21,707 bases of DNA from a virus. Each line of letters opens with the position of its first letter. Position 1 is the stretch's first letter. The stretch lies in the IMG/VR virus record IMGVR_UViG_3300033153_001636, positions 1-21,707 of that record, one strand, 5' to 3'. Made by a program: the position numbers and the translations under genes. Below, piece after piece: positions 2,394-21,707 of the stretch. The notes below the pieces were generated by a model. That model did not search any database and had not been told where the DNA came from. It saw only the letters and a program-made list of their open reading frames with translations.

Positions 2394-3221
2394 TTAACGA
2401 TTTATTTTAAATGTTTTTGCTATTTCTTCGTCTGTTAAATTCTCTCTTTCTGCCTCTATTCGTTTTCTTTGTTCTTCTATTTTTTTTAGAGTATCACATT
2501 CCTTTGTTTGAATTTTTTTATGGGTATCTATCCAATCTTGCCAATTATTAAACCATGTAGACCCATTTTGAATATACTGCCGATCCTTGTTTTCGCATTC
2601 TTTGATATAATTATTCATAGCTTGTTGTATGCTTTGTTTGTCTTGTTCTGTATGAACACTTGCGTTATAATATCTATATGCACTTTTTTTACCTAGAGGT
2701 TTAGGGTATTGTTCCCAGATAGTTTCAAAATAATCACAGTATGTATTCTTATCATTCTTTACATTCTTTACATTCTTTACATTCTTGTTATTGTAGCGTC
2801 CCGATGGTTTCCCGATGGTGCTTTCATTGGTGCTTTCATTGGTGCTTTCATTGGTGCTTTCGTAGTTAGCAGAATCCTGATAAATGCTATAATTTACAAT
2901 GGTTATCAAGACACCACCTAGTTCTTTCGTTGAGTTTATCATTAAGTGCTGACGTAGTACTCTCATAGCTCTCTTCGTTTGATTTGCGCTATACATCATT
3001 TTTCTATACCCAATATACCAAGATAATCCCTCTCTAATATCTTTATATGTTCTAAATAACTGACCTCTTTTTAGTTTATATTTGCCATAATTTACATCTT
3101 TATGATTAGCGTTCATTAATAACCAATCCCATATTTCTCTTATATAGGGGGATGATTTCATAATTTTTGAATTTTGAATTTTTCTAGATTTTATATAATA
3201 ACCACCAGTTATTCTATTCAT
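2394..3221 (-). CDS. Phage replication-initiation protein (winged-helix N-terminus, DnaD/O-like)
   Basis: I start the gene at ATG 3221 (MNRITGGYYIKSRKIQNS), which has an AAGGA site eight bases upstream. The in-frame ATG at 3251 has none. The first ~110 residues form the winged-helix DNA-binding module seen in phage replication proteins (KSSPYIREIWDWLLMNANH..., YGKYKLKRGQLFRTYKDI). A low-complexity linker contains four NEST units and KNVKNVKNVKNDKN. The C-terminus (YFETIWEQYPKPLGKKSAYR ... NGSTWFNNWQDWID) is the conserved end module of such initiators. The role would be to recognise the phage origin and recruit the host helicase or loader. No loader or helicase gene lies beside it. It is the first protein gene after the strong leftward promoter and the structured leader RNA. 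Confidence 0.85.
   Translation of the reverse strand: MNRITGGYYIKSRKIQNSKIMKSSPYIREIWDWLLMNANHKDVNYGKYKLKRGQLFRTYKDIREGLSWYIGYRKMMYSANQTKRAMRVLRQHLMINSTKELGGVLITIVNYSIYQDSANYESTNESTNESTNESTIGKPSGRYNNKNVKNVKNVKNDKNTYCDYFETIWEQYPKPLGKKSAYRYYNASVHTEQDKQSIQQAMNNYIKECENKDRQYIQNGSTWFNNWQDWIDTHKKIQTKECDTLKKIEEQRKRIEAERENLTDEEIAKTFKINR
2752..2861 (-). repeat. Two microsatellites in the replication gene linker
   Basis: Nearly four copies of a 12-bp unit (plus strand GGTGCTTTCATT, 2817-2861) encode NEST repeats. Four copies of a 9-bp unit (ACATTCTTT, 2752-2787) encode KNV repeats. Both are in-frame multiples of three, so copy-number change would alter only the linker between the DNA-binding and C-terminal modules. 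Confidence 0.9.
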
Positions 3222-3252
3222 TTTAAAATTCCTTTTTTTAGTTAGCCACATT

Positions 3253-5179: not shown

Positions 5180-5665
5180 ATGTATCATCCTAAAAAAAAG
5201 AAAGTCAAAACTTCTACACTTAAAAACAAACTTGTTAGAATATTCAATCTATATATCAGATTAAGAGACACATATGATAATGGAATTGTTAAATGTATAT
5301 CTTGTGGCAAATTTTATGTTTTTGAAGCAGTAGATTGTGGACATTTTGTCAATTGTTCTGTTGGAAGTTTACAGTTTAATGAGCAAAATTGTAATGCTCA
5401 ATGCAGAGCTTGCAATCGTTTTCAGGAAGGTAATAATATTGAATATACGCAAGGTATTATGAAAAAATATGGAATAGACATCATAGATAAACTTAGGATA
5501 ATCAAACAAACACATTCACATTTTAAAGCGTTTGATTACGAAATTATGATTAAACATTATGCTGGCGAAGCTTTAAAACTAGTAGAGACTAAAAGCCTAG
5601 ACGATGATACAAAACAAAAAATAATAAAAACGTGCAAAGCTATTGTAAATAAGACTGATATATAG
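5180..5665 (+). CDS. ninG: NinG-like (Rap) recombination protein
   Basis: A 161-residue protein of the lambda NinG/Rap family, which cleaves branched recombination intermediates and assists phage recombination. Family signatures are in order: a basic start (HPKKKKVKTSTLKNKLVR), FNLYIRLRDT, a first Cys pair KCISCGKF (C39, C42), DCGHFVN (52-58), then NEQNCNAQCRACNRFQEGNN (68-87), the zinc-binding HNH-like core. The usual YTQGIMKKYG segment follows. The length is slightly short for the family but complete. Ribosome-binding site AAAGGAGAC; the 22-bp palindrome just upstream suggests individual control. The next gene follows after 17 bp. Confidence 0.9.
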   Translation: MYHPKKKKVKTSTLKNKLVRIFNLYIRLRDTYDNGIVKCISCGKFYVFEAVDCGHFVNCSVGSLQFNEQNCNAQCRACNRFQEGNNIEYTQGIMKKYGIDIIDKLRIIKQTHSHFKAFDYEIMIKHYAGEALKLVETKSLDDDTKQKIIKTCKAIVNKTDI

Positions 5666-6462: not shown

Positions 6463-6846
6463 TTGGTAACTCCATTGTTTCAAATAGGAAGAAAAAAAAC
6501 AGGCGGCAGAAAAAAAGGGACGAAAAATAAAAAAGTTCTTGGTATTCAAGAAATTATAAATAGAAATTATAATGGTTTTGATGTCGTCGAGAAGATGATC
6601 GAAGTATTGCACACTAGAAAGCTATCGAACGATCAACAATTAGCGTACATGAAAGAAATTGCACAATACACACACGCAAAAAGAAAAGCAATAGAATTAT
6701 CTAACAGCGACGATGAACCGTTAAGAATTGAACACAATGTTTTTCATATTTGTATTGAAGAGCGTATCAACGCATTGAACATAGCCAAAACAGACAAAAA
6801 TTCAAAAAAACTAGCACTCAAAAAAAGCGTTGAAAATAAAGGATAA
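6463..6846 (+). CDS. Small terminase-like protein
   Basis: I choose TTG 6463, five bases after AAAGGAGGGCA; the upstream in-frame start at 6415 has no ribosome-binding site. The 127-residue product begins MVTPLFQIGRKKTGGRKKGT. This is the basic GRKKGTxNK start shared by small terminase-like DNA-binding proteins of podoviruses. A helical part with Q-LAYMKEIAQYTHAKRKAIE and an acidic EHNVFHICIEERI strand near the end follow. In the family the N-terminus binds packaging sites in DNA and the C-terminal part contacts the large subunit. Placement directly before the large terminase supports the call. The sequence is too divergent for a firmer family name. Confidence 0.7.
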   Translation: MVTPLFQIGRKKTGGRKKGTKNKKVLGIQEIINRNYNGFDVVEKMIEVLHTRKLSNDQQLAYMKEIAQYTHAKRKAIELSNSDDEPLRIEHNVFHICIEERINALNIAKTDKNSKKLALKKSVENKG

Positions 6847-6881
6847 ATTGCTAGTTGGTATATATAGAAGAAGAAAAGTAA

Positions 6882-6923
6882 ATGATAAAACTTAGCACTC
6901 TAAAAAATGAAGGTGAAATGTGA
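6882..6923 (+). CDS. 13-codon mini-ORF coupled to the large terminase
   Basis: ATG 6882 encodes MIKLSTLKNEGEM and ends in ATGTGAG, overlapping the GTG start of the large terminase by three bases (6920-6922). It may only couple translation. Alternatively it may be the former N-terminus of the terminase split off by a frameshift, because 'LSTLKNE' reads like coding sequence. Confidence 0.3.
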   Translation: MIKLSTLKNEGEM

Positions 6924-8434
6924 GTATATGCAGTCAATTATCAAGAAAGCAATCAAATAAGTTATATTTAGATGTCTTAGAAGAGAAAGACGCTAAATCT
7001 CTAAGACAGTTGTGTCAACAAGATCTGTTTTTTCTTCTTACTGTTGCTTGCAAGCGTATAGATATAGACCGGGAATGGTTATATCAGAGATGTAGAGAAG
7101 TCGAAGCTAATGCGAACGGATATTTAGACTTGTGGGCGAGAGAACATTATAAGTCAACTATAATCACTTTTGGTAAAACAATTCAAGATATATTATGCAA
7201 TCCTGATCTTACTGTAGGAATATTTTCACATACACGACCAATCGCAAAAGCATTTTTGGATCAAATAAAAAGAGAATTTGAAACCAATGATTTTTTAAAA
7301 AAGTTATTTTCTGACATTTTATATGAGTTTCCGACCAGAGAATCGCAAAAATGGTCATTAGATGCTGGTATTATAGTGAAAAGAAAAACTAACCCAAAAG
7401 AATGTACAATAGAGGCGTGGGGATTAGTAGATGGACAGCCGACAGGGAAGCATTTCAACTTGCTTGTATATGATGATGTTGTTACAATCGCTAGCGTTAC
7501 AACCCCAGAACAAATTCAAAAAACTACAGATGCTTTAGCATTGTCATATAATCTCGGTAGTGACGGAGGAAGACGTAGATTTATCGGTACTAGATATCAT
7601 TACAATGATACTTATAGAGCTATAATTGAGAGAAAGACTGTAATAGTACGGACACATGCGGCGACTGATAACGGTCTTGTAACTGGGAATCCAGTCCTGT
7701 TTAGTCAGAAAGATTTGTTGCAAAAATATAACGATATGGGAGTATATGTATTCTCTTGTCAGATGTTACAGAATCCCTCGGCTGATAAGGCAATGGGTTT
7801 CAAAAAAGAATGGTTGAATCATTATGACAGAATATCAAATACAGAGTGTTGGAATTATTATATTTTGGTTGATCCTGCAGGAGAGAAGAAAAAAGGTAGT
7901 GATTACACTGTAATGTTAGTAATTGCCACTGCTCATGATAATAGTTACTATCTTATAGACGCTATACGTGCAAGATATAATCTTTCAGAACGTACAGACA
8001 AGCTATTTGAGTTAGTGAAGAAATATAATCCTATTCGTGTAGGCTACGAAAAATATGGATTGCAAAGCGATATAGAGCATATTAAGTACGTGCAAGAACA
8101 ATACAATTATAGATTCAATATAGTAGCGCTTAGCGGGCAAATTTCTAAAAACGACAGAATTAGAAGCTTAGTTCCTATTTTCCAAAATAATAGAATGTGG
8201 TTTCCGCATACGTTATATTATATTGACCATGAAAATAAACAAAAAGATTTCATTGATGAGTTTATACGTCTTGAATATGATGCGTTCCCAGTATGCGTTC
8301 ATGATGATATGTTAGACTGTTTGGCTCGCATAACAGACGAAAAATTTGGGATAGAATTTCCTAATTTCGAGCAACTGACAAGCAATAATGATATATACAC
8401 AGCTAAAACAGATTATGATGTACTAATAGGATAG
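6920..8434 (+). CDS. terL: Terminase large subunit
   Basis: A 504-residue packaging motor of the T7/Bbp-like podovirus type. The N-terminal ATPase has a deviant Walker A LWAREHYKST (71-80), Walker B LLVYDDVV (181-188; D185, D186) and the coupling region FIGTRYHYNDTY (221-232). The C-terminal RNase H-like nuclease has its acidic residues in ILVDPAGEKKKGSDYT (D318), VGYEKYG (E377) and CVHDDMLDCLAR (D462/D463). It translocates DNA into proheads and cuts concatemers. GTG start with AAGGTGAA upstream, overlapping a mini-ORF. The length is normal. It is followed by the short conserved protein typical of this gene order. Confidence 0.95.
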   Translation: MSICSQLSRKQSNKLYLDVLEEKDAKSLRQLCQQDLFFLLTVACKRIDIDREWLYQRCREVEANANGYLDLWAREHYKSTIITFGKTIQDILCNPDLTVGIFSHTRPIAKAFLDQIKREFETNDFLKKLFSDILYEFPTRESQKWSLDAGIIVKRKTNPKECTIEAWGLVDGQPTGKHFNLLVYDDVVTIASVTTPEQIQKTTDALALSYNLGSDGGRRRFIGTRYHYNDTYRAIIERKTVIVRTHAATDNGLVTGNPVLFSQKDLLQKYNDMGVYVFSCQMLQNPSADKAMGFKKEWLNHYDRISNTECWNYYILVDPAGEKKKGSDYTVMLVIATAHDNSYYLIDAIRARYNLSERTDKLFELVKKYNPIRVGYEKYGLQSDIEHIKYVQEQYNYRFNIVALSGQISKNDRIRSLVPIFQNNRMWFPHTLYYIDHENKQKDFIDEFIRLEYDAFPVCVHDDMLDCLARITDEKFGIEFPNFEQLTSNNDIYTAKTDYDVLIG

Positions 8435-8446
8435 GGAGGTTATAAT

Positions 8447-8719
8447 ATGACAGGATTGGTGAAAGGTATAGCAGATGCAACAATTAGTCCATTAGTGAGC
8501 GGGATTACTGACACTTTTTTAAAGTCAAAGAAAAAAAAAGATACTGGAGTTCCAGTAGTTCCAAACACCGAGGAGCGAGCTAAGACTATTACAGATACAG
8601 CCAAAGAGGCGCAGTTAAAGAAAAAAACTAAAAGAGGTTTTAGTTCGACATTATTAACAAGTCCGCTAGGCGTGAAAAGCCAGGGAAGAGTAGAACTAAA
8701 AACACTCTTGGGGGAATAA
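8447..8719 (+). CDS. Short conserved podovirus protein between terminase and portal
   Basis: A 90-residue protein after GGGAGGTTATAAT. The N-terminus (LVKGIADATISPLVSGITDT) could insert in or lie along a membrane. The middle is highly charged and Lys-rich, and the end GFSSTLLTSPLGVKSQGR then VELKTLLGE is a signature I recall from small proteins at this locus in Bbp/T7-like phages (the 'STLLTsplGv...KTLLGE' tail). The function is unknown; it may be a minor virion or head-tail assembly factor. An open frame on the other strand (8440-8754) is its shadow. Confidence 0.75.
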   Translation: MTGLVKGIADATISPLVSGITDTFLKSKKKKDTGVPVVPNTEERAKTITDTAKEAQLKKKTKRGFSSTLLTSPLGVKSQGRVELKTLLGE

Positions 8720-8720
8720 T

Positions 8721-10370
8721 TTGGATAAGAAGAATTATACAGCAAGATTAGCATCCTTAACGAATAGCAATAGTACGTTTAGAGCTCATTGGAAAGATAT
8801 ATCAGAGTATTTATTGCCTCGCCGTGGCTTGTATTTGACTGAAACCTCACAAAGTACTTATAATCGTGGTGAAAAAAAAGGTCAAAAAATTATAAATGGA
8901 TTACCAAGTGAATCACTAAAGACATTAGCAAGTGGTCTATATAGTGGTTTGACCCCAAGTTCTACGCCTTGGTTCATGATGACGATTGATGATGAAGAAT
9001 TGAAAGAACAACAAGATGTGAAAACGTGGTTACATGATGTCAGGAGTAAAATGTTAAGTGCATTAGCACAATCAAACTTTTATTCTATTATCGCTGGTAT
9101 ATATACAGAATTAGCCGCATTTGGGACGTCCGCCTTGATTATAGAAGAAGATTTCAATAATATATTAAGATTTAAGCATTTTACGATTGGGTCTTATTAT
9201 TTAGCTAACGATTCGGACCAAAGAGTTAATATATTATACAGAAAATTCACAATGACTGCTAATCAAATGATAGATAAATTCGGCGAAGAAAATGTATCAG
9301 AACAAATACAACAAGCCTTTAAAAATAATGACTTGCAGACTAATTTTGAAATTGTACATTGTATTCAACCTAATACGCAATCAGAAAAATTTAAGAATTT
9401 TGAATATGAATCTGTTTATTTCCAAGAAGGTGCTACATCTCCGGAATTTTTAAAAGTATCAGGTTATCATGAGAAACCTTTTGCCGTAGCACGTTGGGAT
9501 TTAATAGGCGATGGAGTTTATGGGGATAGTTGTCCGGGCATGATAGCTTTGGGTGATATTAAGATGTTACAAAAAATGGAAATTAAAAAGTTAAAAGGCT
9601 TAGATAAGGCTGTTGATCCTCCAATGAATGCTCCATCGAGTTTGAAAAACAAACCTAACACTATCGTGTCGGGAGGTGTTAATTATATTGACCCTGCTTC
9701 TGCTCAACAAAGTTTTACACCTACATACATGGTTAGTTTGGACTATCAAAAAATAGCTTTTGAATTAGATCGAGTAGAGGCGAGAATTAAAAGATTCTTT
9801 TTTAACGAGTTATTTTTCACTGTCTCGGCTCAAACTAAAAACATGACTGCAACAGAAGTAGCTAGACGACACGAAGAAAGAGTTATGATGTTTGGTGCGG
9901 TACTAGAAAGGTTACAATCTGAGTTATTTGATGATATTCTAACCCGTGTATATTCTATATTAGACAATTTCGGAATGATCCCAGAACCTCCTAAAGCATT
10001 AGCCGATAAGCCTTTAGAAATAAGGTATATTTCTCAATTATCACAATCTCAACGTGCTATCCAAACAACAGCATTAGAGCAAGTTACAGCGTTTGTAGGA
10101 AATGTTGCACAACTTAAGCCTGAAACATTAGACAAGATAGATTTTGACGAAACAGTAGACCAGTATGCAGATATGATAGGTGTTCCACCTAAAGTTGTAC
10201 GGACCGATGAAGCGGTATTGGGTATAAGAAATCAACGTGCAGAGCAATTAGCGGCACAGCAAATGGCTGAATCTGGAAAACAGTTAGCAGATACAAGTAA
10301 AACATTATCTGATACTGAACTAAATAAAGATAGTGCGTTAGATGGACTATTGGAGGGCGAAAGTGGTTGA
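8721..10370 (+). CDS. Portal / head-to-tail connector protein (T7 gp8-like)
   Basis: A 549-residue protein starting at TTG 8721 behind GGGGGAATAAT. It has the features of podovirus head-to-tail connecting proteins: FRAHWKDISEYLLPRRG near the N-terminus, LKTLASGLYSGLTPSSTPWF (about 75-95), LAAFGTSALIIEED, the clip-region VARWDLIGDGVYGDSCPG, and MTATEVARRHEERV in the long stem helix. The C-terminus is Gln/Ala-rich. Twelve copies would form the portal ring at one capsid vertex, where the terminase docks and the tail tubular proteins attach. It ends inside the start region of the next gene. Confidence 0.95.
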   Translation: MDKKNYTARLASLTNSNSTFRAHWKDISEYLLPRRGLYLTETSQSTYNRGEKKGQKIINGLPSESLKTLASGLYSGLTPSSTPWFMMTIDDEELKEQQDVKTWLHDVRSKMLSALAQSNFYSIIAGIYTELAAFGTSALIIEEDFNNILRFKHFTIGSYYLANDSDQRVNILYRKFTMTANQMIDKFGEENVSEQIQQAFKNNDLQTNFEIVHCIQPNTQSEKFKNFEYESVYFQEGATSPEFLKVSGYHEKPFAVARWDLIGDGVYGDSCPGMIALGDIKMLQKMEIKKLKGLDKAVDPPMNAPSSLKNKPNTIVSGGVNYIDPASAQQSFTPTYMVSLDYQKIAFELDRVEARIKRFFFNELFFTVSAQTKNMTATEVARRHEERVMMFGAVLERLQSELFDDILTRVYSILDNFGMIPEPPKALADKPLEIRYISQLSQSQRAIQTTALEQVTAFVGNVAQLKPETLDKIDFDETVDQYADMIGVPPKVVRTDEAVLGIRNQRAEQLAAQQMAESGKQLADTSKTLSDTELNKDSALDGLLEGESG

Positions 10371-13595: not shown

Positions 13596-15995
13596 ATGGT
13601 AATATCTATTCTAAAAAATACTTTTGTTGGTGGCGAATGGTCGCCTACGTTATATGAACGCACAGATTTGCAAAAATATTATACTGCTTGCAAGTTGATG
13701 AAAAATTTCATGGTTCAACCTCAAGGTGGGGCAATAAAACGAGGTGGTACTAGATTTATTTCTGAGGCGAAATATTCTGATAAAGCAGTAAGATTGATCC
13801 CATTTCAATTTTCTGTTACACAGTCATATATGCTTGAATTTGGCGATAGGTATATGCGCGTATATAAAGACAAAGGTCAAGTTTTGTTAGATACTACACC
13901 AACGGCATATAATGCTGGCACAACTTATAGTATAGGCGATTATGTTGTGTATAGTTCAATTAATTATTATTCAAGAGTTGATAGTAATTTAGGGAATCAG
14001 CCAGACAGTAGCACTACTAAATGGTATGCACTAACGGATACTATTGTAGAAATTCCAACACCTTATACAGAGGATATGTTAAGTTTAATTAAATATACGC
14101 AATCTGCTGATATATTATATTTAACTCATCCAGATGTTGCTCCACAACAATTACTTAGATTCGATAATGATGAGTGGCAGATAGAAAATATTAGTTTTGG
14201 TGGTACAATTAGTCCACCTACAGCATTGACTATGACAGGAGCAACTAATGAATATACTGTAACATCTATTTCTGCTGATGATGGAAGTGAGTCTATTATT
14301 GCTAGTAGCACAACAGGGACGCCCGGAAATACTTTAACGTGGACTGGGGCAAGTGGTGCGACTTACTATAAAGTATATGAAATAGTAAATGGAATATCTT
14401 TTTATCTAGGCTTGGCAGAAACTACATCATATGTAGTAGATGCAGGAGCAGAACCAGACTTAAACGCTATCGCTCCTGAATCTATCACAATGTTTAATTC
14501 AACCGATAATTATCCAGGGTGTTGTGCTTTTTATCAACAACGATTATTATTCGCACGCACTAATAACAAGCCACAAACTTTTTGGGGTTCTGTAACTGGG
14601 TCATACACAAATTTTAATAAATCTATAATCCCAAAAGATGATGATGCTTATGAGTTTACTATAGCCTCAGGCGAAGTTAATGAAATTACATCGCTTACAC
14701 CTTTAACTGATTTAATAATTTGTACTAAAGGGGCAGAATGGCGTGTAAATTCAGGAACAACAAGCTCTATAACGAATACAAATATTAATTTACAGCCTCA
14801 AAGTCGATATGGAAGTGATGATTTAAAGCCTTTAATAATAGGAAATAATGTAATGTTTGTAGAAAATAGTGATGATTTGGTAAGAAATTTATTATTTGTT
14901 TTAGATAGAGAGGCTTACCAAGGAAGTGATTTAAATATTCTAAGTAAACATTTAGTAGAAAATTATAATATTTTATCATGGTGTTATCAGAAAGACCCAT
15001 ATAAAACAATATGGTGTGTAAGAAACGATGGCGGATTGCTAGGATTTTCATATGATTTAGAAAATCAGATTACTGCATGGCATCAACATGATACGGATGG
15101 CAATTTTTTAGATATAGAAAGCATTATCAATGTTGATGGAGATACTAATGTTTATATAGTAGTAGAAAGACGAATTAATGGGTCGTTAGTTAGATATATT
15201 GAAATTTTAGAAAATCCATTAACTACTGAGGATATAAGAGATGCTTTTTATGTTGACAGCGGCTTGTCATTAGATATTCCTGTAGTAATTAGTAATACGA
15301 CACAAGCTGACCCAATAGTAGTTACGGTTACAGCGCATGGTTTTAGTAATGATGATTTAGTAGATATGTCTGATATAAAAGGAATGATTGAACTAAATGG
15401 TAACCAATATAAAGTAGCTAATGTTACTACTAATACTTTTAGCTTAAAAAATATAAATAATGATGATGATATAGATGGTACTAATTATAATGAATATCTA
15501 GGAGAAGGTAAAGTCAGAAAGGCTATTACTGTAATATCAGGATTAGATCATTTAGAAGGGGAAGAAGTAAAAATATTAGCAAATGGGAATGTAGTGTCTG
15601 GTAAAATTGTAATAAGTGGATCAATAACAATTCCTAGCGCATCATCACGTATTCATGTAGGCTTAGCATATATAGCAGATTTAACACCTTTGGATTTTGT
15701 AACTCAGGTAAATAGCGGAACTATACAAGAAAAAATAAAACAAATTAAAAATGTAGTTATTGAGTTACAAAACACACGGGAATTATTTATTGGTCCAGGA
15801 CCAGACAATCTAATTGAAGTTAAATTCAGGATAGATGAAAAATATGGGTTACCTGTTGAATTGTTTAGCGGAACAAAAGAAATTAATTTATTAGATGAAA
15901 TAGGTAGAAATATAAACGTGTTAATGAGAAGCATTAATCCGTTACCTATAACAGTTTTATCTTTAACAGGCAGGTTAAATGTTGCAAAAAGATAA
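13596..15995 (+). CDS. Tail tubular protein B (T7 gp12-like nozzle)
   Basis: A 799-residue protein with the family opening LKNTFVGGEWSPTLYERTDL, KNFMVQPQGGAIKRGGTRFI and RLIPFQFSVTQSYMLEFGDR. YPGCCAFYQQRLLFARTNNK, PQTFWGS and the beta-propeller core (LIICTKGAEWRVNSG, GSDDLKPLIIG) come next. A small inserted beta-domain at about residues 575-640 (VVTVTAHGFSNDDLVDM then NGNQYKVANVTTNTFSL) resembles FCCH-like modules seen in tail proteins. It forms the hexameric nozzle at the tail tip. GCGAGGATTTAA serves as ribosome-binding site, suggesting coupling to the preceding gene. Confidence 0.95.
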   Translation: MVISILKNTFVGGEWSPTLYERTDLQKYYTACKLMKNFMVQPQGGAIKRGGTRFISEAKYSDKAVRLIPFQFSVTQSYMLEFGDRYMRVYKDKGQVLLDTTPTAYNAGTTYSIGDYVVYSSINYYSRVDSNLGNQPDSSTTKWYALTDTIVEIPTPYTEDMLSLIKYTQSADILYLTHPDVAPQQLLRFDNDEWQIENISFGGTISPPTALTMTGATNEYTVTSISADDGSESIIASSTTGTPGNTLTWTGASGATYYKVYEIVNGISFYLGLAETTSYVVDAGAEPDLNAIAPESITMFNSTDNYPGCCAFYQQRLLFARTNNKPQTFWGSVTGSYTNFNKSIIPKDDDAYEFTIASGEVNEITSLTPLTDLIICTKGAEWRVNSGTTSSITNTNINLQPQSRYGSDDLKPLIIGNNVMFVENSDDLVRNLLFVLDREAYQGSDLNILSKHLVENYNILSWCYQKDPYKTIWCVRNDGGLLGFSYDLENQITAWHQHDTDGNFLDIESIINVDGDTNVYIVVERRINGSLVRYIEILENPLTTEDIRDAFYVDSGLSLDIPVVISNTTQADPIVVTVTAHGFSNDDLVDMSDIKGMIELNGNQYKVANVTTNTFSLKNINNDDDIDGTNYNEYLGEGKVRKAITVISGLDHLEGEEVKILANGNVVSGKIVISGSITIPSASSRIHVGLAYIADLTPLDFVTQVNSGTIQEKIKQIKNVVIELQNTRELFIGPGPDNLIEVKFRIDEKYGLPVELFSGTKEINLLDEIGRNINVLMRSINPLPITVLSLTGRLNVAKR

Positions 15996-16455
15996 TATAG
16001 TAATAACAAAAACAACATATGAACATATTTGTTATATTAAAACTCGACTTAGATTTGAAGATATAAAAGAAATATACGATATTACTGGAAAAAATAATAC
16101 AGAAGGTTTAGATTATTCGTTTTATATGTCTAGCAAATCTTGGACTTTATTAAAAGATAATACACCTATTTTTGTATGTGGAGTGGCTTCAAAATCTTGT
16201 ATATCTGATATAGGATTAGCTTGGCTATTAGGAACGCCTAAGGTTAAAGATGTAAAATTTAAGTTAATAAGGCAAAGCAAAAAGTATATAAAAAAAATGC
16301 TAGAAGATTATAAAATGTTAGAAGGTTGGGTAAGTTATGAAAATAAACTATCAAAAGATTGGTTAAAATGGTGTGGGTTTAAAATAGAAAAAGCAGAGAA
16401 AGTAGGTTTTAAAAAAGCGTTATTTCATAGATTTTATATGACAAAGGAGACATAA
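15979..16455 (+). CDS. Internal virion protein A-like (T7 gp13-like, DUF2833 type)
   Basis: A 158-residue protein whose ATG lies 17 bases inside the end of the nozzle gene, after CAGGCAGGTTAA. The pattern SFYMSSKSWTLLKDNTPIFV, CGVASKS, IGLAWLLGTPKVKDVKFKLI and the end ENKLSKDWLKWCGFKIEKAE is that of the small gp13-like proteins with a GNAT-type acetyltransferase fold (Trp-Leu-Gly-Thr and 'W-L...W-GF' motifs). In T7 gp13 helps assemble the internal core and is not kept in the mature virion. Enzymatic activity is unproven. Spacing to the next gene is one base. Confidence 0.85.
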   Translation: MLQKDNIVITKTTYEHICYIKTRLRFEDIKEIYDITGKNNTEGLDYSFYMSSKSWTLLKDNTPIFVCGVASKSCISDIGLAWLLGTPKVKDVKFKLIRQSKKYIKKMLEDYKMLEGWVSYENKLSKDWLKWCGFKIEKAEKVGFKKALFHRFYMTKET

Positions 16456-16456
16456 G

Positions 16457-16951
16457 ATGTGTAGTCCGGCAGTAGCAGTACCCTTATTAATAGCAGGAGC
16501 AGGATTAAAAGCATTTAGTGCGTATTCACAACAAAAATCTAATAATCAAGCATTAGAATATAATGCAAATTTGTTAGAGACAAATGCTAAGACTAGAGAA
16601 TTACAATCTATTAATGTTGAAAAGATTGGTGCTATTAAAAAATCAGAATTAAAAGGTGATGTAAGCATGTTTAAGTCTGCGCAGCGTTCGGCATTTGGTG
16701 CGTCTGGTGTTGTTGTAGACGAAGGAAGTGCATTTGATGCTATACAATCAACAGAAATACAAGGTGCTCAAGATGCCCTTACTTTGCAATATAATATCGA
16801 TCAAGAGTCTTTTGGCTATAAGTCAGAAGCTGAAAATTTAAAAAAACAGGCTACAGGACTAAGAAAACGTAAACGATCGCCTGAATTAGCAGGTTTAACG
16901 TCTTTGTTAGGAAGTGGCATTCAAATAGCATCACAATCAGCATTTAGTTAG
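16457..16951 (+). CDS. Internal virion protein B-like (T7 gp14-like)
   Basis: A 164-residue protein after AAAGGAGACATAAG. A hydrophobic Ala/Gly-rich N-terminal helix (VAVPLLIAGAGLKAFSAYSQ) leads into a long Gln/Asn/Glu-rich helix. The conserved FKSAQRSAFGASGVVVDEGS (about 72-91) motif and YNIDQESFGYKSEAENLKKQ follow, with a glycine-containing C-terminus. This is the layout of the ejection protein that forms a pore or conduit in the outer membrane in T7-like phages. Presence of gp14-, gp15- and gp16-position proteins supports a host with an outer membrane; this is inference. Confidence 0.85.
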   Translation: MCSPAVAVPLLIAGAGLKAFSAYSQQKSNNQALEYNANLLETNAKTRELQSINVEKIGAIKKSELKGDVSMFKSAQRSAFGASGVVVDEGSAFDAIQSTEIQGAQDALTLQYNIDQESFGYKSEAENLKKQATGLRKRKRSPELAGLTSLLGSGIQIASQSAFS

Positions 16952-16960
16952 AGGTAAAAT

Positions 16961-18652
16961 ATGGCAATTATTCCAAAATCTCAAAGAAGAGTAACAGAGT
17001 TAAGTAATATTCCGTCTTCTGCATTAAGAAAAGATGTTGCTACTCCTGCACAATTTGGATCTGAAATAGATCAAGTAGCTCAACAAATAGGACCACAAAT
17101 AGAACAAGCAGGATTGCAAGCGTTACAAAAAAATAAAATAACTAAAAGAAAAGCTCTTATTAGAGATTCAGTTAATGAGTTTAATACATTTTCTAGGGAA
17201 TATAACTCTAGTGTTTACGATAAGAAAGCCCAAGATGCCATAGATATATATCCAGAGGCACAGAAAACTTACGAAGATACTAAAGATAAAATGGTCGCTG
17301 AATTTGGGAATCCTATAGAAAAAGAAATATTTTTAAGTAACATAAACTCTAGTGTAAATAATAGTTTAGGTAATATTTTAAAACATCAAGAAAGTCAAAT
17401 TTCTGCGTATGAAGATGTAACATTAGACGCTCAAAATCAAAATTTTATAGATAATGCTATTCAGAATAGATTTGAACCAGACTATATTAAACAACAAGAG
17501 GAAGGACTTGTTGCAAATACAAGATTTAAAAATGATAAATATGGATTAGAAGGGAAAGTTGCTAAACAAAATGTAGATATGGCCATTAATAATTTTAATG
17601 TTAAAGTGTTAGAATCTTTTGATAGTCCTAGCAAATCTAACGAATATTTAAAAGATAACTGGAATAAATTTTCTCCTGCGGTAAGAACGGAATTACAAGA
17701 AAAAATAAACAAAGAAATGGAAGAAATTTTTATTAGAGAAAAAAGTCTAGAATTATCTACATCTGGGTTAACTTTAGAACAACAACTGCAACAGGTAGAT
17801 AAAATTAAAGATCCAAAACAAGCTAGCGCAGTAAGACGAAATGTTAAAACTAGGAATAATGAAAAAGAAGCTATTAGGAAATCTGAACAGAAACAATTTG
17901 AAGAGCAAGAATGGGACAAATTATTTGAAAATCCGCTAATTTATAACATACCCATTAAACAGATAGATTCTACTACTCAAAAACAAATGCTTAATTTTAA
18001 GAATAAAGCTATTAATGAATATAAGCAAGCTAATGGTGTCGGTGTGGCTGATTCTACTGACTATATATTATATAATGAGTTAATGTCGATGTCTGATAAA
18101 GAGTTTTTAGAGGTTAATCTTAATGACCATATTAGCAAGCTCAACGCTACAGATTTTAAATCATTAGTTAATAATCAAAGAAATTTGCGTAGAAAAGACA
18201 ATGAAGCTTTCAGGGTCCGTACTTATCAACAACAAGCTAAATCTAAAATACAAGGTATGAAAGAATTTGATGCAAGAAAAGGAAAAGAAAAAAAAATCAA
18301 TAATGTTAATCATTATTACGAACAATTTAATAAATCTTTAGAATCTATCCCTGAAAATGAACGAACAGAAGAACGAGTAGGAAAATTAATAGATGGCTTG
18401 TTATCTCCTGTAAGCGTTGAAAGATTTGGGATTATACCAGATAAAACATATTTCAGGTTTGAAGTTCCTTATTTAGAGAGTATAAAAAAACAAAAAGAAA
18501 TATTAGGCGAAAACATCCCACAAAATTTACAGAAAATGAGTAATGTAAAATTTGATGAAAGACAATCTAAATATTATGTTGATTATGATAATATACGAGA
18601 AATATACAATACTTTTGGCGAATTAGAATCAAGGTGGACAAAAAATGACTAA
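16961..18652 (+). CDS. Internal virion protein C-like (T7 gp15-position ejection protein)
   Basis: A 563-residue, almost entirely helical, Gln/Lys/Glu-rich protein after AGAGGTAAAAT. The start AIIPKSQRRVTELSNIPSSA and the segment FGSEIDQVAQQIGPQIEQAG are typical of ejection proteins at this locus in Bbp-like phages. Long coiled-coil segments follow (residues about 60-130 and 250-330). There is no catalytic motif. In the T7 model gp15 stacks on gp14 and gp16 to form the periplasmic tunnel. Its last codons overlap the next start by eight bases (ATGACTAA). Confidence 0.8.
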   Translation: MAIIPKSQRRVTELSNIPSSALRKDVATPAQFGSEIDQVAQQIGPQIEQAGLQALQKNKITKRKALIRDSVNEFNTFSREYNSSVYDKKAQDAIDIYPEAQKTYEDTKDKMVAEFGNPIEKEIFLSNINSSVNNSLGNILKHQESQISAYEDVTLDAQNQNFIDNAIQNRFEPDYIKQQEEGLVANTRFKNDKYGLEGKVAKQNVDMAINNFNVKVLESFDSPSKSNEYLKDNWNKFSPAVRTELQEKINKEMEEIFIREKSLELSTSGLTLEQQLQQVDKIKDPKQASAVRRNVKTRNNEKEAIRKSEQKQFEEQEWDKLFENPLIYNIPIKQIDSTTQKQMLNFKNKAINEYKQANGVGVADSTDYILYNELMSMSDKEFLEVNLNDHISKLNATDFKSLVNNQRNLRRKDNEAFRVRTYQQQAKSKIQGMKEFDARKGKEKKINNVNHYYEQFNKSLESIPENERTEERVGKLIDGLLSPVSVERFGIIPDKTYFRFEVPYLESIKKQKEILGENIPQNLQKMSNVKFDERQSKYYVDYDNIREIYNTFGELESRWTKND

Positions 18653-21600
18653 TCCTTTAACTGAAGGCTATAGCGAAGTGCCTTTAGAAAAAGAAACTAC
18701 AAATACGAATCCTTTAACACAAGGGTATAAACAGTTACCTATTAATGAAGTAACGTCTAATGAACCTATTAATTTGACACGTGATAATATAACTAATGAT
18801 ATGCTAAAGGGTCTTTTTGATACAGATGGCGAAACTTTTGATACTGCGGTTCGTGTTGATAGGGGAAATATAGAATGGGCTTTAAATACTTATAAAGGAT
18901 TAGCTCCTGATCTTGCGGCTAAGGTTCAAAAAATAGCTAATAAAGAACAATTACCTTTCGAGAATATTGCTAGTAATAAAGAAGTATGGGGACAATGGGA
19001 CGAAGCACAAAATATTTATAATTCTCTATTAGAAAGAGACGATAGTGGTAAGTTTATATATCCTTATACGGCTGAATGGCTATCTAATCCTGATAAGATG
19101 GTCGTGTCTAAAGATGACGTGAACGCATTGAAAGAAATAGAAAAACGGCTAGATAGGCAAGGTCAACAAAATGAAGGATTTATAAAGCAAAATATGCGCG
19201 CTTTTAAATATGGATTACATCGATCTGTAGCAGATGTAGCTAAAGTTCCGGCATTGCTATATACATCTGCTACAGAAGTAGGGGAAGATTTCCTAGATAT
19301 TGATATAAATACAAATCCTCCTGACTGGTTGCTTAATAATCCTATTTCAAAACATTATACAAAACTAGCTATGGAAGTTATGCCTGTTGATTTAGAAAAT
19401 AACATAATAGACTATATAAAACAAGGCGATATTCAAGGTGCAGCAAATAATTTAGTATTACAAATGTCGGCTAATTTACCTAATACTGTAACAGCAATAG
19501 CATCATTTTTTGCTGGCGTTCCTGGTTTAGGTCTAGGTATATTAAGTGCTACTGCAGGAGGGTCCGCTTTTGCTGAAGGTTTAGCAGAAGATAAAACTCC
19601 TGGACAAGCAGCTTTCCAAGGTATTGCTAGTGGTGCGGCAGAAGGATTTTTTGAAAGTATAGGTACTTTTGGGATATTAAAATCTTTACAGAAAGGAGTT
19701 GCATCTAAACTAGGAAAAGAAGTAAGCAGAAAGTTTATAGTTGAGGTTGTGGATAACTTTTTAAGGTCTGGACTTCAAGAAGGTGGCGAAGAAGTTGCAA
19801 CAGAGTCAGTTCAATCATTTGCTGATTATATAACAGGGGATAAACAAGCATTTCAAGGAATATTTGGGAATTTAGTTAATTCATTTTTAGTAGGTTTTGG
19901 TTCTGGTGGTATGTTAGGTGGCTCAGGCATAGCGCTTAGTCATGCTTCAAAACAATTAAAATTTACTAGAGAGAAGAATAATTTTGAACAATTAGACACA
20001 GCAGTAGCAGAATCTAAAACTAAGCAACGATCGGAAGAAACTATTAAAGAATTTATCGACCAAAAGAATCAAAAATTAAATACTGATCCTAATATATATT
20101 TAGATAATCAAGGGATGATAGATTACTTTCAAAAGAAACCTAAAGAATTTAATGAGTTTGCAGAAAAAATGAATATCGACAAAGACTTGAACGAATTATA
20201 TAAAACAGGTGCAGATATTCCAGTAGATAAAGGTAGTTTTTTAAGTTCTTATGCCGGCACAGAATTAAAACAAGATTTAGATAAATTTATTAAGTTTGAG
20301 GCTAGTGGAATATCAGAAGAAAATCAAGCTGAATTAAAAACACAAGTTGACGAACAAATACAAACACTTCAAGATAGATTAAATACATTGCAACCTGAAC
20401 AACAAAGACCTGCACAAGTAGAAACCATTAGAACTCAATTAATAGAAAGTGGACAGAAAGCGAAAGATGTTGATGCTCAGTTAGGAGTATTCTTATCAGG
20501 GGCAAAGACTTTAAGTCAAGAAAGAGGAGAAACAGTTGATGAGTGGTTTAATCGGGTTAATCCTAAATTAAATATAGGAAAAATTACAGATGTTGATTTA
20601 AAACAAGAAGATTCTGTATTAATTGAAGAGGCTAGGAAGTATAAGACAGCTGATGATTTTATTAAAAGTCAAAAAATAATTCATCATGGGACAGCAGAAA
20701 AATTTGATAAATTTGATATAAACAAAACGGCTGATGGGACTATATGGTTTACTGATAATAAATCAAAAATAGAAAAAGGCGAAGTTTCAGCTACTGGAAA
20801 AGGCGAAATAATGGATCGTATTATAGAAGAAGCTAGTTTAAAGTTAGGGGGATGGGAACAGTCTGATAAATATAGCACTAATGAATTAATTAATCAGGGA
20901 TACGATGGGTTGAAATTAGAAGATAAAGATGAAGTTACTTATCAAATATTTAATCCTGAAAAACTAAAAACCAAACAACAATTAATAGATATTTGGAATA
21001 AAACACAAGAAAAACCAGAGACTTTAAAACAAAAGGAAACTATAAAAGGCGGTATTAAATTTACAGATAGCAAAGCTATAATAAACCTATTCGAATCTTC
21101 TAATATGTCGACTTTTTTACATGAAACCGCACATATATTTTCAAAAGATATTCAAAAATTAATAAAAGAAGGCAAAGCTAGTGATGAATTAAAAGCTGAT
21201 TATCAAACTATGCTTGATTTTGTTGATGGAAAATTTGATGTAAAAGGCGAAGAAAAGTTTGCTAGAGGATTTGAGGCATATCTAAGAGAAGGAAAAGCAC
21301 CTAGTATAAAACTTGCAAATGCGTTTGAGAAGTTTAAACAATGGTTAACAAATATATACAGAAGTATTAAAGATTTAGATATTAAAATAAACCCTGAAAT
21401 TAAAGGTGTATTTGATAGATTATTAGCTTCTAAAGAAGAAGTAGAAGAAGCAGAAATATATTATAATATGCGTAAAAATTTATCTGAACATACAAAATTA
21501 AATAAAAAACAAACAGCTAATTTAGAGAAGAAACAAGATAGCTTCGAGACTGAATCTTTAAAAAAACAATCAACTAAATCTATAAAAGCATACGAGAAAG

Positions 21601-21707
21601 CTATAGGTGGAAAACAAGTTTATAGAGATAAAGCAACAGCGGAGATTACTAATATGCCAGTATATAAAGCTATGTACGATGCTATAGATAACGGAAGTTT
21701 AGACGCT
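18645..21707 (+). CDS. Polyvalent ejected virion protein with ADP-ribosyltransferase-like and zincin domains, 3' end missing
   Basis: Starts at ATG 18645 (AAGGTGGACAAAA upstream) and stays open for 1021 codons to the right edge. Layout: two short tandem motifs TNPLTEGYSEVPL and TNPLTQGYKQLPI (2-37), then a helical region. Hydrophobic Gly/Ala-rich segments follow (about 275-310, VTAIASFFAGVPGLGLGIL, and about 408-432, SFLVGFGSGGMLGGSGIAL), then coiled coil. A compact ADP-ribosyltransferase-like domain (about 679-790) has IHHGTAEKFDKFD, IWFTDN (700-705), GYDGLKLED and YQIFNPEKLK. A zincin-like domain has HETAH (826-830) and EEKFARGFEAYLREGKAPS with E877 as likely third ligand. These domains are those of phage 'polyvalent' proteins. 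The position matches T7 gp16, so it is probably packaged and ejected first into the host, where the enzymes may modify host targets. No transglycosylase domain is seen in the part present. Confidence 0.85.
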   Translation, partial: MTNPLTEGYSEVPLEKETTNTNPLTQGYKQLPINEVTSNEPINLTRDNITNDMLKGLFDTDGETFDTAVRVDRGNIEWALNTYKGLAPDLAAKVQKIANKEQLPFENIASNKEVWGQWDEAQNIYNSLLERDDSGKFIYPYTAEWLSNPDKMVVSKDDVNALKEIEKRLDRQGQQNEGFIKQNMRAFKYGLHRSVADVAKVPALLYTSATEVGEDFLDIDINTNPPDWLLNNPISKHYTKLAMEVMPVDLENNIIDYIKQGDIQGAANNLVLQMSANLPNTVTAIASFFAGVPGLGLGILSATAGGSAFAEGLAEDKTPGQAAFQGIASGAAEGFFESIGTFGILKSLQKGVASKLGKEVSRKFIVEVVDNFLRSGLQEGGEEVATESVQSFADYITGDKQAFQGIFGNLVNSFLVGFGSGGMLGGSGIALSHASKQLKFTREKNNFEQLDTAVAESKTKQRSEETIKEFIDQKNQKLNTDPNIYLDNQGMIDYFQKKPKEFNEFAEKMNIDKDLNELYKTGADIPVDKGSFLSSYAGTELKQDLDKFIKFEASGISEENQAELKTQVDEQIQTLQDRLNTLQPEQQRPAQVETIRTQLIESGQKAKDVDAQLGVFLSGAKTLSQERGETVDEWFNRVNPKLNIGKITDVDLKQEDSVLIEEARKYKTADDFIKSQKIIHHGTAEKFDKFDINKTADGTIWFTDNKSKIEKGEVSATGKGEIMDRIIEEASLKLGGWEQSDKYSTNELINQGYDGLKLEDKDEVTYQIFNPEKLKTKQQLIDIWNKTQEKPETLKQKETIKGGIKFTDSKAIINLFESSNMSTFLHETAHIFSKDIQKLIKEGKASDELKADYQTMLDFVDGKFDVKGEEKFARGFEAYLREGKAPSIKLANAFEKFKQWLTNIYRSIKDLDIKINPEIKGVFDRLLASKEEVEEAEIYYNMRKNLSEHTKLNKKQTANLEKKQDSFETESLKKQSTKSIKAYEKAIGGKQVYRDKATAEITNMPVYKAMYDAIDNGSLDA

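Follow-up and report, generated by a model that had tools for sequence, protein, structure and literature searches.

We analysed a 21.7 kb viral contig (IMG/VR record IMGVR_UViG_3300033153_001636, positions 1 to 21,707; the window hereafter, meaning this whole 21,707-nucleotide stretch) from a short-tailed phage of the epsilon15/BPP-1-like podovirus type, and focused on its last open reading frame (ORF), which runs open to the contig end with no stop and shows 1021 amino acids (aa). This ORF probably encodes an ejection protein of the polyvalent kind, whose payload is exchangeable and in the window is a compact ADP-ribosyltransferase (ART) of the ART-PolyVal family. LPD22, ART and zincin-like domains are combined in one large protein within the virion gene cluster. 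Polyvalent proteins, including their ARTs and zincins, have already been described (Iyer et al. 2017, PMC5512222), and LPD22 together with the family of relatives supports our protein as a new member of this known kind. An earlier note on the window had proposed a polyvalent protein of more than 1000 residues in the gp16 position with an ART-like domain and a zincin; its first three elements are borne out below, and the last in part. The features of the protein are as follows, with E-values here and elsewhere coming from small local searches and thus being relative.

18645..21707, + strand: gp16-slot polyvalent protein ORF, residues 1-1021, C-terminus cut by the contig end
18645..20609, + strand: N-terminal chassis region, residues 1-655, helical, in all 79 five-prime-complete relatives
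18894..19169, + strand: LPD22 domain (PF18834), residues 84-175 (E 6.2e-10, 39.6 bits, cutoff 28.6)
19488..19544, + strand: strongest hydrophobic segment, residues 282-300, possible membrane helix
20565..21046, + strand: payload slot, where DNA likeness to relative L002 is interrupted (69.7% identity to the left, 73.8% to the right)
20673..20969, + strand: ART domain, residues 677-775, short H-W-D type
21030..21467, + strand: zincin-like domain, residues 796-936
21120..21134, + strand: HETAH (HExxH), residues 826-830, in 49/49 rows
21249..21305, + strand: EEKFARGFEAYLREGKAPS helix, residues 869-887, with E870/E877 invariant (candidate third zinc ligand)
21468..21707, + strand: start of the conserved C-terminal chassis, the rest of which is deduced from full-length relatives

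The ART domain carries the motifs HGT (681-683), IWFTDN (700-705) and YQIFNPEKL (766-774), at the positions where they had been noticed before. H681, W701 and D754 are invariant in 22/22 aligned rows; WFT was part of one search pattern, but finding the first six relatives did not depend on it. Scanned alone, the segment scores 30.4 bits against the ART-PolyVal (PF18760) cutoff of 31.2, whereas approximately 70% identical relatives exceed that cutoff (L102 with 33.9 bits, L105 with 37.2 bits). Aligned with hhalign, a profile of the short subfamily matches the profile of full-score ART-PolyVal members over 109 columns (99.5%, E 2.6e-22), with the HGT, WFT/YFT and YDG blocks lining up. Because its close relatives pass the cutoff and the two profiles match, the window segment is, as judged by sequence, a true ART-PolyVal member despite its own sub-cutoff score.

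Structure prediction agrees with this assignment. Modelled with AlphaFold from 67 rows, residues 655-960 reach a mean pLDDT (predicted local distance difference test score) of 89.6. The best solved matches of this model in Foldseek are tankyrases and PDB entry 6kyf (E 0.05, probability 0.99), which is titled only anti-CRISPR protein and which we take to be AcrIF11, an ART. VIA returned RES toxins, diphtheria toxin, MbcT and PARPs for the same model (Z 5.7-6.8 over approximately 95-105 residues); these Z values are moderate, yet the top rows are consistently ARTs. The payload is thus predicted to have an ART fold. AcrIF11, the top Foldseek match, differs from the window ART in being a stand-alone protein made after infection and shares 14% identity with it, and a common fold does not mean a common target. 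Chain B of PDB 9k3a (cyanophage A4 pre-ejectosome, residues 1420-1600) also stood among the ART-like VIA matches with Z 6.0, which suggests that a solved ejectosome may hold an ART-like domain; neither ART profile matches 9k3a by sequence, and we treat it as a lead only.

Is this ART active? In ART-PolyVal, strands 1, 2 and 5 carry the characteristic residues H, Y and D, respectively (PMC5512222), and the usual catalytic tyrosine of this H-Y-D type is W701 in all 22 rows of our alignment. The window ART is also shorter than the 140-position Pfam model, and its BFVD and PDB matches bear on fold only. The domain might therefore have kept the fold and lost catalysis, binding NAD+, nucleic acid or a partner instead. 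We consider this unlikely, since the subfamily, which moves around as an independent module and also occurs as stand-alone ORFs of 138-150 aa, has H681, W701 and D754 without exception, and the spread of a module with fixed active-site-like residues suggests that the ART is likely active. L021, a full-score ART-PolyVal member, likewise has W at the strand-2 position. The stand-alone ORFs, at 7914-8330 in viral contig L116 and 7896-8348 in viral contig L120, hold little beyond the short H-W-D ART. No short ART was found in plasmids or, with the pattern used, in bacterial genome contigs, and named phages gave only a weak match.

The ART sits in a fixed slot of an otherwise constant protein. We compared 94 proteins, that of the window among them, which are encoded by named phages or viral contigs (79 with a complete start) and were collected via zincin and ART patterns, so that statements on universality are biased. 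A hidden Markov model (HMM) of the N-region matches 79/79 of the five-prime-complete relatives, and in the median the match stops at residue 614; between there and the zincin lies a payload of 0-1360 aa, with borders that are HMM ends and hence approximate. From HExxH to the C-terminus, the length varies little (median 1234 aa; the central 80% of complete proteins span 1186-1328 aa). The contents of the slot vary widely. ART-PolyVal was found in 21/50 viral-contig payloads scanned, and LPD3, PBECR3, MuF_C, acetyltransferase, zeta toxin and PBECR5 domains were recognised as well. Payloads of named phages include PBECR1 (BPP-1), PBECR5 (Cobetia phage Carin1 and Acinetobacter phage Ab9), acetyltransferase (Vibrio phage 1.185.O and Ab9), LPD23 (Pseudomonas phage AF) and ParB (one Manatee Spring phage). 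The slot is empty in five proteins (MZH0603, ctRVW222, L064, L065 and L089). A constant slot with exchangeable or absent payloads appears new, as we did not find it in the part of PMC5512222 considered or in a limited literature search.

Close relatives show the exchange itself. The genes of Vibrio phages PS25B.1 and 1.021.A share 93% DNA identity over bases 1-1823 and again from base 2759 (2264 in 1.021.A), while bases 1824-2758 are without any likeness and the payloads are unrelated; at the protein level, identity is 97% on one side of the slot and 96% on the other. The opposite pattern is seen between PS25B.1 and 1.185.O, whose payloads are 98% identical on chassis that are 84% and 75-79% identical, and Vibrio phage MZH0603 has no payload. 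Because these phages are isolates, assembly error is unlikely to account for the differences. Similarly, L084 and ctQRb9 share a payload (67% over 271 aa) on chassis with 24-27% identity. For the window, DNA likeness to L002 is continuous up to base 20564 and is back at 21047. The ART is 70-78% identical to ARTs of otherwise different phages, and its DNA is 73-77% identical to that of L101, L102 and L103. The remaining genes of these three show 25-30% identity to those of the window or no detectable relation; L103 has no other tested gene in common with it.

These payloads could also act in the producing cell, as a toxin or in superinfection exclusion by a prophage, with the slot being merely a convenient late-gene fusion point. 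Toxin-like payload families do exist (zeta toxin, PBECR nucleases), and superinfection roles were raised by Iyer et al. (PMC5512222). But the ejection-type fusion in all 79 relatives, and the placement of ARTs in other ejection clusters, point to delivery and make this explanation very improbable in our assessment. In L101, a gp16-slot protein (6657-10229) carries a phage lysozyme domain at its N-terminus and behind it two ARTs in tandem, of which one is 78% identical to that of the window, and in L102 the ART lies within a 385-aa ORF adjoining an internal virion protein.

The gene order around the slot is the same in BPP-1, PfDIW6, the Vibrio phages and N4. Virion genes of the window include the terminase, the major capsid protein, gp11/gp12-type tail genes and three small internal-virion/ejection-type genes, and the ORF follows the gp14- and gp15-type internal virion genes:

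8721..10370, + strand: portal / head-tail connector, 38% identity to phage epsilon15
13596-15995: gp12-like tail tube protein with an E1_FCCH domain (residues 579-641; E 1.8e-9)
15979..16455, + strand: internal virion protein (phrog_308, E 4.9e-34)
16457..16951, + strand: gp14-like internal virion protein (PF24072, E 1.9e-7; phrog_418, E 2e-24)
16961..18652, + strand: gp15-slot ejection protein, 563 aa, with an 8-base overlap with the gp16-slot ORF

Since synteny and the upstream gp14-like and internal virion protein homologues agree, gene position supports the last ORF as a gp16-type last ejection protein, and we infer that it is ejected. A T7-like ejectosome had been spoken of; by its portal and capsid, the phage is of the epsilon15/BPP-1 type and not of the T7 type. 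A domain scan detected no SLT transglycosylase in the gp15-slot protein of the window, and no domain was detected in those of L002, L021 and Vibrio phage PS25B.1 either; where relatives have a transglycosylase, it is in the gp15-slot protein (BPP-1 Bbp11, PfDIW6). The idea that the zincin substitutes for an absent transglycosylase was rejected, as BPP-1 and PfDIW6 carry both. The E1_FCCH annotation also occurs in Vibrio phage relatives of the tail tube protein. To the left of the virion genes are a DnaD-like helicase loader or replication initiator (2394-3251, - strand) and a NinG/Rap-type endonuclease (5180-5665, + strand).

Directly behind the slot follows the zincin-like domain. H826, E827, H830, E870 and E877 are each present in 49/49 aligned rows, and HExxH was found in 80/80 viral-contig matches. 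HExxH lay outside the search pattern and was not selected for, whereas E877 lay inside one of the two patterns and its invariance is partly selected. Judged by these counts and by those for H681, W701 and D754, the zincin and ART motifs are not chance. The HExxH helix and a second helix with E870/E877 are both seen in the AlphaFold model, as expected for the zincin-like metallopeptidases (MPTases) of polyvalent proteins. A profile search of PDB sequences with the zincin gave nothing significant. Of the zincin claimed in the earlier note, the HETAH and EEKFARGFEAYLREGKAPS helix residues and the helical model therefore stand, while a match to a solved zincin fold was not obtained; the invariant ligand-like residues together with the helical model support a zincin-like MPTase, with putative proteolytic activity.

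Two readings of its role for the payload can be weighed. Zincin cleavage next to the payload was proposed in general by Iyer et al. (PMC5512222), and the fixed position right behind the variable slot is consistent with processing. Alternatively, the payload may be delivered uncut, and the zincin may be an effector in its own right, cutting proteins of the host, or have degenerated into a structural domain, instead of being a processing protease. Full-length transfer has been reported for N4 virion RNA polymerase (vRNAP), ArdC and TraC1, which carry such domains (PMC5512222), and the zincin is kept in the five proteins with an empty slot, where it must have another role or act elsewhere; it cannot serve payload release alone. 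A purely structural role is disfavoured, as all five ligand- or catalytic-type residues are invariant. We regard this alternative as a whole as quite plausible, though we lean somewhat against it.

The remainder of the protein forms a conserved chassis. The N-region is predicted to be helical, with pLDDT mostly above 90 in the LPD22 segment and low model confidence at residues approximately 270-427, and its model gave no match in the fold search. Several hydrophobic segments had been noted, but in the visible part only residues 282-300 pass a simple hydropathy cut as strongly hydrophobic. Full-length relatives (L002, 2126 aa; L021, 2214 aa) extend about 1.1-1.3 thousand aa beyond the zincin; L002 is 53% identical to the window protein in the N-part and 66% in the zincin, and has a single hydrophobic segment close to its C-terminus. 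Further domains had been considered possible in the missing C-terminus, but relatives have a conserved C-region there, and no Pfam enzyme domain was found in that of L002 or of the phage relatives scanned. Neither the whole window protein nor L002 has a solved relative by sequence.

Our preferred reading, an ejected chassis with an exchangeable payload, would work as follows. The N-terminal approximately 620 residues and the C-terminal approximately 1.2 thousand aa would be a conserved chassis, probably helping to build the DNA-ejection conduit, and the slot directly ahead of the zincin-like domain would house a mobile effector module. The protein most likely resides within the capsid and is ejected before the DNA, taking the ART along; once inside the cell, the ART would modify a host protein using NAD+. 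With AcrIF11 and T4 Alt as guides, we guess that the target is perhaps in defence or transcription. The zincin beside the slot probably processes the protein, so that the payload is freed. Several points weigh against this reading, in addition to W701. In the literature, we found no virion proteomics for the gp16-slot family, and neither mass spectrometry nor infection data on the window protein or those closely related to it; the BPP-1 study identified two main capsid proteins only. Moreover, the window protein is incomplete (its C-terminus lies off the contig), the 655-960 model matched no solved zincin fold in structure searches whose lists were filled by the ART, and the presence of the zincin in relatives partly follows from searching via the zincin.

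Known systems share parts of this design. The phage-type polyvalent proteins of Iyer et al. (PMC5512222) are likewise very large, encoded among virion genes and proposed to be injected with DNA, and have LPD22, an H-Y/W-D ART and an HExxH zincin; the window protein differs in its short ART with W for Y and in a constant slot, lying between a fixed N-region and a fixed zincin plus C-region, with exchange traced between close relatives, which the part of that paper considered does not describe. BPP-1 Bbp10 (L004 9673-15831) is similar in length (2052 aa) and has LPD22, a homologous zincin (38% identity) and the same gene slot, but its payload is PBECR1 nuclease-like rather than an ART, and Bbp11 in the gp15 slot carries an SLT transglycosylase. 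T4 Alt is an ART ejected with phage DNA that acts on the host (as reported in PMC5512222), but is of the R-S-E type, stand-alone and from a myovirus. N4 gp50 (L125 9524-20026; the annotated virion RNA polymerase), which according to PMC12633501 is expelled into the host, follows gp52/gp51 in a gp16-type slot and has an N-domain, a central enzyme, an HExxH domain and then a helical C-region. It differs in that its payload is an RNA polymerase. Its HExxH-to-C-terminus length is approximately 1270 aa (1217-1369 in 72 N4-like relatives), against the median of 1234 aa in the window family. Homology of the C-chassis to the N4 vRNAP C-terminal domain was rejected (profile-profile probability 2-3%, P 0.014-0.019), with no change after the N4 alignment was deepened to 72 sequences. 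The likeness in order and length is striking, but it stands as an analogy, as sequence profiles do not support common descent. A broader idea, which we put forward tentatively and consider rather doubtful, is that the last ejection proteins of podoviruses have a general payload-bay chassis in common (N conduit, then payload, then zincin, then a C-region of approximately 1.25 thousand aa), with N4 vRNAP as one instance carrying an RNA polymerase payload. On this view, local host defences would select among interchangeable loads, such as ART, PBECR nucleases and acetyltransferases, which the zincin would release or position.

Overall, polyvalent proteins have been proposed as injected multi-enzyme weapons, but the function of their payloads has been hard to test so far. 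The isolated Vibrio phages amount to near-isogenic pairs, in which the same ejection chassis carries a payload that is different, transferred or absent, and their comparison on hosts with defined defence genes would reveal the benefit of an injected payload. The conserved adjacency of slot and zincin provides a concrete hypothesis for payload release, and the slot, with its constant place and clean borders, hints at a natural chassis for protein delivery.
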